Part shown: piece by piece, positions 45,001 through 63,776 of the stretch | Layout of the letters: every line of letters starts with the position of its first letter | Numbering within the stretch: the stretch's first letter is position 1 | From: Plumapathes pennacea | Lineage: Eukaryota > Cnidaria > Anthozoa > Antipatharia > Myriopathidae | Assembly: GCA_964036295.1 (NCBI GenBank) | Contig: OZ038466.1 | Span: 3,782,001-3,846,000, forward strand | Length of the DNA stretch: 64,000 bases | Reading direction: 5' to 3' | Program-made: the position numbers and the translations under genes | Notes under the pieces: model-generated | The model's input: the letters and a program-made list of their open reading frames with translations, nothing else | What the model was told of the DNA's origin: nothing | The model's database searches: none

Positions 45001-47186
45001 TTATACCAGCAAACTGACACACTCTGACATGTAATACAAAAAGAATGCAGGAAAAACTTCACCATCAATATCTTCAAAAGAATCAGATTTGCCAGAACGC
45101 TGGTTGTAGATCGATAGTTTCCCTTTCTCACAGTCCAAAAGCAGTTCTAGAATATCCCCTGTTGCCAAGCTGGTGATTGAACTTTGGACTCCAAACCCAT
45201 CTGCAGCCTGGTACTTCTGTCCATTACTTAGCATCCACTGATTGCCACGGTTCCAGAAAGTCAACTTCCCCTTTGCTCTTTGTTCTGCACCAATGATGCC
45301 AACTGCAACATGTCCTAGTGTACTGCACATGTTCACCTTCCACAAGTGCCGACCTCTGCTGAATCCACAAGTACCAGAGATATTTTGGTACCCCAGTACG
45401 GTTGATCTAACTGTCATATTCTTGTTTGAAAATTGAGCCCCACTTTCCTTCGACACTTGAGTAAGGGCCCAAGTTTCAACATTCCAAACAAGAGGAGCTC
45501 CCTTAACAACTTGTCCATTCAGTGTAACTGACAAGCGATGCAGACCGGCCACCTGAGGATTGAATGTAAAAGTGTAGGTTCCATCTCCATTATCTGATGC
45601 TGTACCAATCACAGGTGCATCTTGCTGCCCAGGAAGTTGAACTGCAACTTGAAAAAGATCACCCCCTTCTTGCAGCTTCTTGCCATGATAATCCCGAGCC
45701 ACAATGTGGAATTCGATGGGCTGTTTGCACAGTGTACTATAGGAGAGCCCCTCTTCCTTATTTCCCATTGAAACTGTAGACTGCGAAGCAAGTGCTTGAT
45801 CCACCTTGATTGAGCCGAACTGCAGGATTCCCTCGTGCAACTGGTGTTCATCAGCTTGGAATTTACAGGTGTCACCCACACATGGCTGCAGCTTCCACGT
45901 TGCTGTGCTCAGTTCCTTCAGCCGAGAGGCCATTTGTGGGATCATCTGTAACAAGTTCATGTGACTTCCATCCTTTATGGCCTGCACAGTGAAGTTTACA
46001 CTGCTCTGCATGCTCCCTAAAGCCAGCTCCAGCTCCTTCTTCTGTGTCTGCAGTTCCTTCATCCTCATACATTTGGCTTTGCTGATTTCTGAAAGGAGAT
46101 TCTTGCCACGATCTTCCATTTGTTTGGTCAGACTGTTGATGGAGTCATTGACTGTCTTTTCACATTTCATAGCACTGCTATCCACACATTTCATCATGTC
46201 AGCAACCGATTTCACTGCATTCTTCAAGACAGGAATTTGTGTTTTAGTTGCTACAAGAAGATCTCTCAAACCACCAACTCTCTTAGCATAAGCATCTTTG
46301 GCAAATACATACTTGTGATCACGATGCTCAACAATAGTACAGTCCCGACAAATGGCCTTGTCACAGCTCTCACAAAACAACTTCAGACTTTCTTCTTCAT
46401 GTTTTTTACACATCAAAGGCTTGGCAACAGCACTGGCTCCTTCCAACTTAACTTCACTCATTGACATCAACTTGTGAGACTTGGTTTTCCGGCCTCGGCG
46501 ATGAGCTTCCTCACAAAACTTACAAAGGAACAGAGAGCAGGAGGTGCAGCGAGAGACAGCGGGGTCGCCGCTAACACAGTTGTCACACTCAAGCTTGTCA
46601 GCCTGTGAGTCATGAAGAGCGACCAGAGAAATCAAGTTGTCGACAAAGAAGTTTGGCTGTAAACAACCAACATTTCCATTGGCAATCTGTGAAATTGAAG
46701 CAAAGATGATACTTTAAGTTTTTTAAAAGTTCTATATATAATTATATATATTTGACCTCAAACAGAAGCAAAGCCAGGGTTTATATGTGGTAACAAAAGC
46801 AATGACTCAACCTCTCTCTGCATTAACGTTTTGTTGCCAAGCACAATAATATTTATCCAAAGAAACAAATCAAGGTATATGATAAAATGAAATTGGCAGA
46901 AAACCTATACTATAATGTAAATCCAGCTAACAAATAAACATTAAATTGTGAACTGATGAAAATTTGTAGATTATAGACATATTCCTTGTACCTTCGCAAC
47001 TTTACGACAACTGGGGCAAGCGATTGTCCAAGTTCTTCCATCTTTGTCTTGCACCAGGACGCCCTCAAGGCATGTTTTACAGAAGGTGTGCAGACAAGGA
47101 AGCACTTTGGGTTCTTTGAACTCCTCCAAGCAAACCGGGCACACCAGCTGCTGTTTCAGATCTTCTGTCAGTCCAGATGCTGCCAT
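45001..47186 (-). CDS. TRIM-family E3 ligase: RING, two B-boxes, coiled coil, filamin repeat, SPRY (copy A)
   Basis: Two exons, 47186-46992 and 46686-45001, joined in phase 0 (donor AAG-GTACAAG, acceptor TTTCACAG), give 626 residues. Order: C3HC4 RING (residues about 16-62, CPVCLEEF...CPSC), B-box 1 (from CDNC), B-box 2 (HEEESLKLFCESCDKAICRD), a coiled coil of about 130 residues, a filamin-type immunoglobulin repeat (SDNGDGTYTFTFNPQVAG, then GAPLVWNVETW), and a C-terminal SPRY-like domain (GRHLWKV to the stop). RING TRIM proteins are ubiquitin ligases, and the C-terminal domains choose the target. RBCC plus filamin resembles TRIM45, but TRIM45 has no SPRY, so I give no symbol. A duplicated paralog is at 58352-60077. 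Confidence 0.9.
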
Positions 47187-58351: not shown

Positions 58352-60077
58352 CTAACCTTCATTATTATCATCTGTAAAGGAAATTCTATTAGATTTCCTC
58401 TTCACTAAAGCATGAGACCAAGTTTCAACATTCCAAACAAGAGGAGCTCCTTTGACATCTTGTCCATTCAATTTAACTGACAAGTGATGCTCACCATCCA
58501 CCCAAGGTTTGAATGTAAATGTGTATGTTCCATCTCCATTATCTGTCACTTTATCAATCACAGATGCATCTTGTTGCCCAGGAGCTTCAACTGCAACTGT
58601 AATGAGATCTCCCCCCTCCTGGCGCGTCATGCCACAACAGTTCCGAGCCACAATCTGGAAATCAATTGGCTGATTGCACAGTGTATTGTACATGACTCCC
58701 TCCTCCCCATTTGCCATTGAAACTGTTGACAATGAAGGATTTGTGTGATCCACCTTGATTGACCCAAACTGAAGGATTCCCTCGCATTCACATTCATCAG
58801 CTTGGACTTTACAGGTGTCATCTACACAAGGCTGCAACTGCCATGTTGCTGTGCTCAGTTCCTTCAGCCGAGAGGCCATTTGTGGGATCATCTGTAACAA
58901 ATTCACATGACTTCCATCCTTTATGGCCTGCACAGTGAAGTTTACGCTACTCTGCATGCTCCCCAAAGCCATTTCTAACTCTTCCTTCTGAGTCTCAAGT
59001 GCCTTTATCTTCGCAACTTTAGCTTTGTTGATGTCTGAGAGCAGACTAGTGCGATGATCTTCCAGTTGTATGATTTGACTGTCAATGGAGTCATTGACTC
59101 TTTTTTCAGACTTCTCAGCACTGCTACCTACACATGTTATCATCTCTGCAACTGATTTCACTGCATTCTTCAAGACAGGAATTTGTGTTTTAGTTTCCAC
59201 TAGAAGATCTCTCAAACCACCTACTCTCTTAGCATAAGCATCTTTGGCAAATATATATTTGTGATCACGATGCTCAACAATAATACAGTCCCGACAAATG
59301 GCCTTGTCACAGCTCTCACAAAACAACTTCAGACTTTCTTCTTCATGTGTTTCACACATCAAAGGCTTGCCAACAGCACTGGATCCTTCTAACTTAACTT
59401 CACTCATTGACATCAACTGGTGAGACTTGGTTTTCCGGCCTCGGCGATGAGCTTCCTCACAAAACTTACAAAGGAACAGAGAGCAGGAGGTGCAGCGAGA
59501 GACAGCAGGGTCACTGCCAACACAGTTGTCACACTCAAGCTTGTCAGGCTGCAAGTCATGAAGAGCGACCAGAGAAATCAAGTTGTTGACAAAGAAGTTT
59601 GGCTGTAAACAACTAACATTTCCATTGGCAATCTGTGAAATTGAAGCAAAGATGATACTTTATATTAGTTTTTTCTAAAGTAATATATATAATTTCATTT
59701 ATTTTTGACCTGAAACAAGCAAAGCCAGGGCAATATTAGTCTACATTAACTTTTATTGCCTGAAGCACATTAATATTGTCCAAAAAGTAGGACTTATGTA
59801 TACTATATGTAAATCTAGCTAATAAAATAAACATTAAATTTTGAACTGAAGAACATTTTGTAGATTATAGACATATTCCTTGTACCTTCGCAACTTTTCG
59901 ACAACTGGGGCAAGGGATTGTCCAAGTTCCATCTTTGCCTTGCACCAGGACACCCTCAAGGCATGTTTTACAGAAGCTGTGCAGACAAGGAAGCACTTTG
60001 GGTTCTTTGAACTCCTCCAAACAAACCGGGCACTCCAGCTGCTGTTTCAGATCTTTTGTCAGTCCAGATGTTGCCAT
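58352..60077 (-). CDS. TRIM-family protein: RING, two B-boxes, coiled coil, filamin repeat, SPRY lost (copy B)
   Basis: Exons 60077-59886 and 59632-58352, joined in phase 0 with the same splice sites as copy A, give 490 residues. The RING (CPVCLEEF to CPSC), both B-boxes, coiled coil and filamin repeat (DNGDGTYTFTFKPWVDG) are intact and closely match copy A. The frame ends about 20 residues after NVETW, where copy A continues into SPRY. It could still be a functional ligase with altered target choice, a TRIM45-like layout, or an early pseudogene. Promoter and intron homology with copy A shows duplication of the whole gene. Confidence 0.85.
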
Positions 60078-60501
60078 CGGCTCAAATATACGTCAGACTA
60101 AAGAATAAATGAAACGAACGGGAAATTTTGTAATATTAAAATTGAAACAGTTTCGTCTTTAACAAAGTAGTTTGCTTTCAGTGGTTCGATCGTAGTATTT
60201 TGGCTCAAAATGTCTTTTCCTAAGTACTAATATCTTGCTTATCATTATGCATTGTCGAAAAGGCTGAAAATTTGCTAAAAAAAAAGAGAAACAGCAGAGT
60301 ACTTGAGCAAAGAAGGGTAACACGAATTGAGAGGAAAAAAACGAACGACACACCGAAAGTCGTTGAGATTCATGCGTTGTTGGCCTCGAACACACTGTAC
60401 AGTTTTCCAATTACTGTTCTAAAGAATTAAAACTCTTTAGCATAATTATCAAACTACAAAAAGGAAAGCAAACAAAAAGAAACATACTAGAGCTCTATCG
60501 C
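60078..60501. promoter_or_regulatory. Upstream region of TRIM copy B
   Basis: Carries the same conserved block as copy A (60344-60401). It ends at the 9-bp target sequence CTCTATCGC (60493-60501), where the long-TIR element inserted. Confidence 0.45.
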
Positions 60502-61157
60502 GGTCGACACTAGATAACATAGGGTGGAGGACCCCTGAGTTTTCGGAATGTTTCCGACTTTACGATGACGTCACACGAAACCACAATTCGGAAAAACAAG
60601 ATGGCGGACATGCGAGCGGTTTGAAGCGATGCCCAACGGACGGTATTTTCCAGAGTATTTCACCTTGTTATTCACTCATTCTTACTGTTACCGATTTCTA
60701 TATACCGATGCATACGAATCGGCATTTAATAGTCCGTGCAAAAACCTACAAAGACTCTCAAGTGGTATGGGTTACCTGACTGGGTGTTAACGACGCGAAA
60801 CAGCGGCACTTTAGAACATAGGTTGAGGTAACCAATAATATTTTCCCGAGTGTTTCGCCTTGTTCTTCACTCATTCTCACTGTTACCGATTTCTATGTAC
60901 CGATGCATATGAATCGGCATTTAATAGTCCGTGCAAAAACCTACAAAGACTCTCAAGCGGTATGGGTTACCTGACTGGGTGTTAACGACGCGAAACAGAC
61001 TACAAGACACTTTACAACATAGGTTGAGGTAACCGATAATATTAATTAAGAAATTAAGAAATAAAAAGAAATTCACGCCAATCGCGCTGTCCTGTCTATG
61101 TCACATGTATTTTTGGAGAGAAATTTAGGGTGATCGAGATGCAGAGATAGATGAACA

Positions 61158-61926
61158 ATGGTTGACTATGGCTTCGTAAACTCAGCAGAAGAGGCCTATA
61201 AGTTCATTTCAGAATACGAAGTAAAGCACGCAGTAAAGTTTGCCTGCTACAAGGATGACAAAGGCTTTGGAAACGCAGGTAAGCGAATTATTTCACCCTG
61301 CCTGGTTTTCACTAAGTGGCATATGTAATGATATACAAGCATCAGATAAGCATAAACATAACAACCAATCGAGCATAAGAATCTTAAGGTTCTTATGTTT
61401 ACGCTCATCATATTTATGCTTATGTCAGTAGTGAAAACCAGGCTTTAATTGACCTTGAATAAATAGTTCCATGCCAGACAAAGGAAAACAGTCACTATGT
61501 ACAATACACTTCTTTATGAAATGTCTTAATTTTTTTCAAGGAACTCAAATTGAATAACTGTGTCCAGATAATGCTATAAACTGACCGGTTAGAAGCAAGC
61601 TGGAAGAGTAATTGGGATGTCAACAGTGCTAATAAAAAAGGCTTAAATTAGGGATGCTCATAATATTATTTACCATGGTGTGGGGTGGGGGTTGGGGTTG
61701 GGATTAGGGTCTCTCTTTTGATATGGAGGGGAGGGGCATGAAATTTTCAAAGTTAAAGCAGGGGAGGGGGCAGAGGCAGGGGCTATGACATGCAGTTTAG
61801 AGAACCCCAACCTGCTACAAGAGAGGAAACCACACCAAACAAGTGGAGACAGATGACTTCAGATGACATCACATTTACTCACTGCAAAGGAAGGTTCATT
61901 TCCTCCCACAACTGAGTTCAAGTAAT

Positions 61927-61969
<43 letters not shown>

Positions 61970-62902
61970 TCGCTTTATTCATAACCTTACAGTAATATAA
62001 AAAAATACAGAGTAACAATCAAAGATAAACTATTTGTTAAAACAAGTTATTTGCACTTGGATTATTTGCACTTGAAACAGAACTTAGATGCTATGCAAAT
62101 AAAATCTTGCTGAGCAACTTAAAGTGTTGCTAAGACAAAAATGGCCTCAATCTCATTACTCTTATTTGAGAACCATTACAAAATGAGGAAGAATGGCGTT
62201 TTCTGTTTGTCAATATCTCATCTCGTTCGAGAGATATTCAAGATTTTGCAATAATTATGCTAATGAGCAGAGCTATGATGTTATTTGGTTGACAGACAAG
62301 AGGGAAATTTCAAAGTGTTGAATATTTCCACAAATATTAGATAAAAAGGATTGAAACTTTACATGCTCATGACAATTGAGGACTTGCACATGATCATGAT
62401 CATGTTGCCATGGAAATATTTTCCCCTTGTTACCTTTTTTTATTTTTCAGAGTTCACGGCTCTCTGTGATGGGAGCAGAAGTCATGGAAGTATTTAGCAT
62501 TTGTAGATGGAGTTCCTTTGCTTCTACCAGTTAGTTTGGGTGGTGCAGCAGAGGGTGTGGAAGATCTACCACACATTTTGAAAGAACAGGGTTACAGGTA
62601 CATGCCTATAATTCCAAAGGAAAAAAAAAAACAGCCAAATACATGTAAATTTGAAATAATTTAGTGCAATGATGTATACTGTTCCTCTTTCTATCTTGTT
62701 TGACACTAAAAGGTATGAGCTAGAGGCTGCAACCCTTTGGTCACCAGTTGGACATTACACCACCTGTTTCAAGTTTAAGGGCCAGTGGATGTTCTATCAT
62801 GGGATGGCAGTGAAGTATGGAAGGGGACTAAGACCATACAATGGAACACTACAGGGATACCATTTGTCCCATTGCATCTATGTTAATAGGCTACTGAAAT
62901 GA
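61158..62902 (+). CDS. Spliced gene inside the long-TIR element, with USP-like C-terminal part
   Basis: Exon at 61158-61278 (ATG; donor GCAG-GTAAGC) encodes about 40 residues, including SAEEAYKFISEYE and ACYKDDKGFG. A middle exon, start uncertain (about 62477), ends at 62598 and reads LAFVDGVPLLLPVSLGG then LPHILKEQGYR. The last exon, 62713-62902 (acceptor CTAAAAG), gives YELEAATLWSPVGHYTTCFK, then QWMFYHGM, GYHLSHCIYVNRLLK and stop. The pattern Y-L-x-A...GHYTT...W-x-x-YHG recalls the His-box half of ubiquitin-specific proteases (C19 fold). This is a family-level guess. The phase between the first and middle exons does not fit directly, so exons may be missing or the gene decayed. Confidence 0.5.
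61300..61443. mobile_element. Small MITE inside the long-TIR element
   Basis: 144 bp with ends GCCTGGTTTTCACTA and complement TAGTGAAAACCAGGC. Internal ATAAGCATAAACATA and its complement form a hairpin. It resembles the hairpin at 30310-30403. Confidence 0.7.
61925..61969. repeat. AAC microsatellite
   Basis: Trinucleotide run of about 15 units with two interruptions. Confidence 0.9.
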
Positions 62903-63776
62903 GAAACTGTGTCAGCTGAATGCACTAGATGTAAAGCCCTGGCCAAATGAGCTGTGTCCATTTGGCCACCCAGCTGTTGCATGAGTTTTGATCTTACTCA
63001 AAATTTTGTGCAACATTTGTTTTGTCTGGGGTGTTGGTTTTGTTTTGCAGTCATTTGGCCACCTTAATATGCAACATTGTAGTACACTGGAGCAGGTGCA
63101 TCTTCCAAGAATTCTTATAGTATGATCTTCTATGTTACACGAAACATGTTTGCTGATTTGGCCACCTCCATAAAACATCGCTTTCTATTGTTACCTATTG
63201 AACTCTTGTAACAAATAACTGAAAGTTCGTTGCCTTACCTCAACCTATGTTGTAAAGTGCCTCGTAGTCTGTTTCGCGTCGTTAACACCCAGTCAGGTAA
63301 CCCATACCACTCGAGAGTCTTTGTAGGTTTTTGCACGGACTATATTAAATGCCGATTCGTATGCATCGGTACATAGAAATCGGTAACAGTAAGAATGAGT
63401 GAAGAACAAGGCGAAACACTCGGGAAAATATTATTGGTTACCTCAACCTATGTTATAAAGTGCCGCTGTTTCGCGTCGTTAACACCCAGTCAAGTAACCC
63501 ATACCACTCGAGAGTCTTTGTAGGTTTTTGCACGGACTATTAAATGCCGATTCGTATGCATCGGCATATAGAAATCGGTAACAGGAAGAATGAGTGAATA
63601 ACAAGGTGAAATACTCTGGAAAATACCGTCCGTTGGGCATCGCTTCAAACCGCTCGCATGTCCGCCATCTTGTTTTTCCGAATTGTGGTTTCGTGTGACG
63701 TCATCGTAAAGTCGAAAATATTCCGAAAACTCAGGGGTCCTCCACCCTATGTTATCTAGTGTCGACCCTCTATCGC

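Follow-up and report, generated by a model that had tools for sequence, protein, structure and literature searches.

What kind of mobile element carries a spliced gene fragment reminiscent of a ubiquitin protease, how does it move, and where did the fragment come from? These questions are raised by a stretch of 64,000 nucleotides from the antipatharian Plumapathes pennacea (assembly GCA_964036295.1, contig OZ038466.1, positions 3,782,001 to 3,846,000; the window), towards the right end of which lies an element of 3,266 bp. The element is a Mutator-like element (MULE), as had been proposed in an original prediction made from the letters alone, and it is a non-autonomous one. It is assigned to the MULEs because it is flanked by exact 9-bp target-site duplications, has long inverted arms and a first exon homologous to that of MULE transposase genes, and shares its termini with an element that has a predicted MULE transposase. 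The target duplication of MULEs is typically 9 bp (8–11 bp). The predicted coordinates, 60493..63776, include the duplications, and the parts of the element are as follows (L and C numbers are our handles for loci and contigs).

60502-63767: whole element, 3,266 bp, duplications excluded
60493..60501, no strand: target-site duplication, left copy, CTCTATCGC
60502..61043, plus strand: left arm, the outer ~115 bp of which are 98% shared with the 11.4-kb MULE C3:6020105-6031479
60644..61043, no strand: two tandem 195-bp subterminal repeats in the left arm
61158..61278, plus strand: exon 1, a homologue of the first exon of MULE transposase genes; donor GT at 61279
61279..62450, plus strand: intron 1, without a match to transposase or Cys half
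62451..62597, plus strand: exon 2; in-frame part 62498-62597, canonical-acceptor stop 62495-62497
62598..62712, plus strand: intron 2, GT..AG kept in 23/23 aligned copies
62713..62902, plus strand: exon 3, C19-like His-box piece with GHYTT..W..YHG; stop 62900-62902
63235..63767, minus strand: right arm, which likewise holds the 195-bp repeat
63768..63776, no strand: target-site duplication, right copy, CTCTATCGC

The arms, predicted to be roughly 530 bp long with internal repeats, align over 531 and 533 bp at 97.2% identity (in a repeat search, as ungapped pairs of 425 nt at 98% and 109 nt at 96%), and the repeat has a period of 195 bp, with 2.0 copies at 60644-61043, and recurs in the right arm. 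The termini of the element are GGTCGACACT...AGTGTCGACC, and the sequence of termini of this type is GGTCGACACTAG. Exon 1 is 54% identical to its counterparts in L065 and L066, and 38% identical to that in L075. Relatives of exon 1 (53–55% identity) are found 1.7–3 kb upstream of the top three matches in the genome to the MULE transposase domain, PF10551 (exon-1 relative/PF10551 pairs C2:18170331/18172117, C3:5862270/5864048 and C5:15629028/15625807). The pair on C2 belongs to a MULE of ~7.0 kb (L065:1153-8145), which is bounded by perfect terminal inverted repeats of 58 bp and has, all over their cut-offs, the domains ZSWIM1-3_RNaseH-like (6.5e-15), ALS2CR8 (2e-11), MULE (2.2e-10), SWIM (1.8e-5), Peptidase_C48 (1.3e-6) and a PHD finger (2.4e-5). 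The window element has no match by tblastn to the transposase pieces of L065 or of L068 (a second MULE, described below), and by phmmer their transposase and C-terminal pieces reached 0.6 at best, exon 1 of L065 serving as positive control at 4.1e-11. As no transposase core is matched, the element is taken to be non-autonomous.

How widely has it spread? Across the 290 Mb (24 contigs) searched, there are about forty copies of what is a young multicopy family. The 21-bp terminus (up to two mismatches) occurs 43 times in the forward and 43 times in the reverse orientation, whereas a reversed-pattern control gave 0, so the occurrence is not due to chance. A search with the left arm yielded at least 50 matching pieces (40 of 98 candidates scored), exon 1 is matched at ≥88% identity at 39 places, and exon 3 is matched at 37 places (rows of the cargo search counted by hand, a few of them partial). 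Relatives sharing both arms and cargo, which the prediction implied, do exist. Seven copies compared by segment are 97.5–100% identical to the window element throughout, gaps uncounted. Of 25 copies checked for duplications (the window copy and 24 fetched), 21 have a perfect 9-bp duplication, and all 21 duplications differ in sequence. The remaining four are L015, in which the terminus is altered; L022, where the flanks are alike but unequal; L026, the aligned right arm of which ends 86 bp before the terminus; and L025, where the end call fell inside a shortened arm and eight visible letters are common to the flanks. Paired termini indicate short derivatives (C1:14447086-14447961 and C10:14606641-14608332), and at C3:6020105-6020444 an arm, a piece of exon 1 and an arm lie within 340 bp.

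Some copies hold extra DNA, e.g., 4.2 kb in L021 (L021:2298-6569). This insert was considered as a source of transposase and rejected: its frames look Harbinger-type (we take them to resemble a Harbinger-type transposase and a Myb-like partner), and it is therefore read as a nested insertion. The exon-1 places without a match in the cargo search are L063, C12:5073967, C12:5636317 and C8:8365729; in L063, the MULE sequence stops at ~2060, ahead of further frames that are presumably reverse-transcriptase-like. In intron 1 of the window element, 61299-61443 is an inverted-repeat insertion (CCTGGTTTTCACTA..TAGTGAAAACCAGG, by eye) with the look of a miniature inverted-repeat transposable element, and a similar sequence is entered by the exon-1 frame of L063.

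Which transposase could move such a family? One of 13 PF10551 matches (C3:6027877) lies between termini of the window type, compared by eye. The element concerned, C3:6020105-6031479 (L068/L075), is 11,375 bp long, its two ends match each other at 97.4% over 115 bp, the 9-bp duplication ACCTTCCCA (minus-strand reading) stands on both sides, and its high end is 98% identical to the outer 115 bp of the window element. On its minus strand there are an exon-1 homologue (38%, E 2.8e-7), a MULE domain (28.8 bits, over the cut-off, in one search, and 26 bits, under it, in another), and, both over the cut-off, ZSWIM (1.8e-13) and Herpes_teg_N (PF04843; 4.6e-7), a viral-tegument-like deubiquitinase (VTD) domain. 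The VTD matches PDB entry 8add (listed as an ATP-dependent DNA helicase) at 6e-11, with QC and DSH kept; we take 8add to be the VTD of a zebrafish Helitron. Ulp1 motifs were recognised by eye on three frames (HLGYHWALGVSI, VIDTRKQEILYFDSMHG and PKQGNGFDCGMFAC), the His, Asp, Gln and Cys motifs all being present (HW, YFDSMHG, Q.NGFDCG), and Peptidase_C48 is matched at 3e-11 on exon pieces joined by hand, the Cys exon alone scoring 0.007, under the cut-off. Among the whole-domain matches listed, it is the single element of its kind, the next-closest place to its transposase being 48% identical. It is likely to be the source of transposase for the window family. Movement of the window element, by cut and paste, would depend on a trans-acting transposase that recognises the outer ~115 bp common to both elements; the most likely candidate is the one predicted in this 11.4-kb element.

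At the right end of the 11.4-kb MULE (L068:106-607, i.e., C3:6020105-6020606), the end sequence and its flank (CCTGGGAAGGT) recur in inverted orientation, accompanied by a 47-bp piece of exon 1, and the whole has the look of a fold-back rearrangement. Clusters of a ~50-bp palindromic repeat with TGTCCTTCCCGCTGGTACG lie near both of its ends (L075:1816-2376 and L068:1610-2121); this 19-mer, with up to two mismatches, is absent from the window.

What, then, is the cargo? The pattern GHYTT...W..YHG, which had suggested the His-box half of a C19-type protease, is present in the reading frame of the last exon (62750-62803). The C-terminal domain of the L064 YqaJ protein, and its relatives L072, L073 and L074, can be aligned with the cargo piece (YELEAATLWSPVGHYTTCFKFKGQWMFYHGM), and the residues ATLW, GHY, F, W and Y are then the same in all. 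L064 has a YqaJ match at 6.3e-10 and an adjoining DDE_Tnp_4 gene at 2.7e-40. The His half of its C-terminal domain matches exon 3 by phmmer at 7.8e-9 among the 122 peptides of the element and at 2.2e-4 genome-wide, and on this comparison the window exon can firmly be regarded as its homologue. The nearest relatives of the cargo in the genome are the C-terminal domain of L064 and its paralogues, not the ubiquitin-specific proteases (USPs) of the host; viral contigs yielded no relative of the L064 domain or of the cargo. The L064 protein (L064:465-2120) is the YqaJ protein of an ISL2EU-like element with a C-terminal C19-like domain (NTC...GHY), and its middle has a run of near-identical CPHTSDVLVSD repeats. 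Open translations of the window arms (60504-60776, plus strand; 63493-63765, minus strand) match the middle of the L064 domain weakly (phmmer 0.003-0.004; tblastn 0.003 and 0.026), probably by chance.

The C19-type reading of the piece is suggestive. In L064, NTCPLDNWLMIFQAL stands upstream of the His half, and we take it to resemble the Cys box of USPs. A profile search of PDB returned seven rows at E≤10, six of which are His boxes of USP46/USP12 (E 1.1–2.6) aligned at GHY. With hhalign, a USP His-box profile was matched with 29% probability (P 0.0006, score 23.1), a score that none of 200 column shuffles reached (best 20.6), this USP profile being a typed consensus plus one USP15 stretch and thus a small control chosen for the claim; against the Ulp1 pair, hhalign gave 0.1%. 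A cargo unrelated to C19, in which GHY..W..Y arose by convergence in a different fold, is a possibility of some substance, though we doubt it in view of these matches, which Ulp1 did not share. It would accord with the top row of the PDB profile search, which is an unrelated phosphatidylethanolamine-binding protein (E 0.15), and with the lack of significant matches elsewhere: the window cargo piece found 0 families in Pfam at E≤10 and 0 matches in PDB by phmmer, the L064 domain gave two chance rows only in PDB, and the whole-domain profile of a second alignment (A2) found no USP there. The UCH family appeared at 0.16 for one of five members of the first alignment and for none of the six members of A2. 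Significance was reached in neither database, and what stands of the predicted C19 His box is a weak likeness.

An active protease is a different matter. The tblastn search of the window with the L064 domain had missed even the His piece, and the absence of the Cys half was for this reason retested by phmmer: in the same run that found the His half, the L064 Cys half reached 0.26 at best in the element. When the genome was searched with the L064 domain, 31 family copies were matched, all at the His part only. In an alignment of 23 copies (L021 and L026 were excluded for length), the acidic position (Asp of YDG) is occupied by His in 21 copies and by Tyr in the other two, whereas all four relatives have Asp there. 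With no Cys half detected and the acidic residue replaced, the piece would hardly be an enzyme; it is most likely a remnant without protease activity. An AlphaFold2 model of exon 3 alone (63 residues) had a pLDDT of 58, too poor for a fold search.

How did the remnant come to lie between these arms? We think it probable that this is a non-autonomous animal MULE, mobilised in trans, with a deletion relic as its interior. The interior, and this is the less certain part, would descend by internal deletion from an earlier full MULE, the gene of which would have ended in a domain of ubiquitin- or ubiquitin-like (Ubl)-protease type, here C19-like, as in the relatives; exon 1 and the last two exons would be all that remains of it. 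In full elements, according to a hypothesis in the literature, such a domain may have ubiquitin or SUMO marks as its targets, in connection with transposition or silencing.

Several observations weigh against this explanation. No copy with both a transposase and the C19-like piece was found; copies with 5–7 kb between exon 1 and the cargo exist (L021; C2:33996346-34004693); and there is one weak cargo row, C6:22793666, at E 0.64. The termini of the C3 element are 98% identical to those of the window element, but its exon 1 is only 38% identical; given this difference, and a shared stretch confined to the outer 115 bp, the window family is not a simple deletion of the C3 copy. Non-autonomous MULEs that depend on a transposase in trans would typically look like this, with termini in common and interiors that differ. 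Clear selection is not seen either: in two older copies, the conservation of exon 1 does not clearly exceed that of intron 1 (identity to the window element 94.1% and 92.3%, respectively, in L063, and 92.6% and 93.7% in L069; exon 3, absent or misaligned there, lies outside the comparison).

Alternatively, as in a Pack-MULE, the element could have picked up the last two exons from a true USP gene of the host and then multiplied them. MULEs are known to acquire fragments of host genes, as the accessible text of PMC6446971 describes, the retained intron is as in capture at the DNA level, and the weak row at C6:22793666 could be counted in favour. We nevertheless consider capture unlikely, since beyond the copies of the family itself the cargo has four places at E≤1, three of which are the L064-type transposon domain, no cargo place is among the 48 UCH matches listed, and exon 1 derives from a MULE gene rather than a host gene. 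No host parent of the cargo was recognised in the cargo search.

Could the short product itself be of use? The prediction that the cargo is spliced holds for the splice signals, which are kept in most or all aligned copies: the exon-1 donor is GT in 20 of 23 and AT in three, and intron 2 has both GT and AG in every one. However, exon 1 ends in phase 1, and the canonical acceptor of exon 2 (62450/62451) leads to the stop codon at 62495-62497 after 15 residues of exon 2, with a product of about 55 amino acids. The AG at 62496-62497 is the only acceptor that joins exon 1 in frame, giving an open product of 136 amino acids. It seems very improbable that either product is a functional regulator, such as a dominant-negative N-terminus of a transposase: the start codon is present in 23/23 aligned copies and the signals of intron 2 are equally intact, whereas the exon-1 donor is lost in 3/23, the frame is altered in exon 1 of L023 and in exon 3 of L012, and the older copies show no clear excess of exon conservation.

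How much of this is new? Plant MULEs that carry Ulp1-type proteases had been held up in the original prediction as the counterpart to which an animal element would be a striking parallel. The parallel is real in L065 (C48) and in L068/L075 (VTD, Ulp1 motifs), but it is already published, since the accessible text of PMC2836005 places Ulp1 in Mutator elements of hydra and lancelet (also plants), along with OTU in animal Helitrons and a C19 domain with transposase_11 in Trichomonas. L065 and L068/L075 are like these Ulp1 elements in that the 3′ part of the gene carries C48 or its motifs; the window element differs in carrying a C19-like piece and not C48, and L068 adds VTD. Compared with the Mutator superfamily as set out in the part of PMC6446971 available (MuDR, Phantom, Ghost and others), the window element is alike in its 9-bp duplications and long inverted arms, and its relatives in their MULE/ZSWIM transposase, plus SWIM in L065, whereas the ~530-bp arms with a 195-bp internal repeat and the C19-like remnant set it apart. 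The same text gives an OTU motif for MuDR-6_HM (Cnidaria), and the words ‘protease’, ‘peptidase’ and ‘ubiquitin’ are nowhere in it. VTD domains are described in the accessible text of PMC9741609, in which ‘mutator’ and ‘mule’ do not occur, for Helitrons and for cnidarian genes with transposon-associated domains; L068 is alike in its VTD with Q-C and D-x-H, but here the VTD stands beside a MULE transposase and not in a Helitron, the termini that enclose both being flanked by a 9-bp duplication. L064 resembles the ISL2EU elements of PMC4482050 in having YqaJ beside a transposase gene, here DDE_Tnp_4, and its C-terminus is related to the window cargo. The window element belongs to another transposase class, and the text of PMC4482050, as far as available, leaves a C-terminal C19-like domain unmentioned (0 occurrences of ‘protease’ or ‘ubiquitin’). 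C48 is also recorded in oomycete Cryptons (PMC3212892, in the part available).

In itself, the window element is thus a non-autonomous MULE of an ordinary, already known type, whereas the MULE with VTD plus Ulp1 and the MULE remnant with a C19-like piece look like new variants; among the open-access papers that the searches listed, no title or abstract paired a MULE with VTD or C19. A more tentative idea, which we would not yet favour, is that of a modular exchange: in this animal's MULEs, the 3′ end of the transposase gene would receive one or another ubiquitin/Ubl protease, the sets being C48 with PHD (L065), VTD with C48 (L068/L075) and C19-like (in the putative lost parent of the window family). 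If so, a transposon would need protease activity of some class, not one particular enzyme. Why DNA transposons of several superfamilies carry deubiquitinase/SUMO-protease domains is a question raised in the accessible texts of PMC2836005 and PMC9741609. Here, a single superfamily offers a single-copy element with two protease classes, a second element type with another arrangement, and ~40 non-autonomous copies sharing the termini of the first, a set in which one could test, within one system, whether each protease is needed.

Two further observations concern the surroundings of family members. Two UCH-domain matches (C4:13553198-13557068, minus strand) lie 1.6 kb from the copy L019 (C4:13558692), which is probably a coincidental insertion by a gene. 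In the window, a minus-strand gene at 58352-60077, presumably RING/TRIM-like, has its apparent start codon ~416 bp from the left duplication of the element, and a similar frame is present at 45001-46713.

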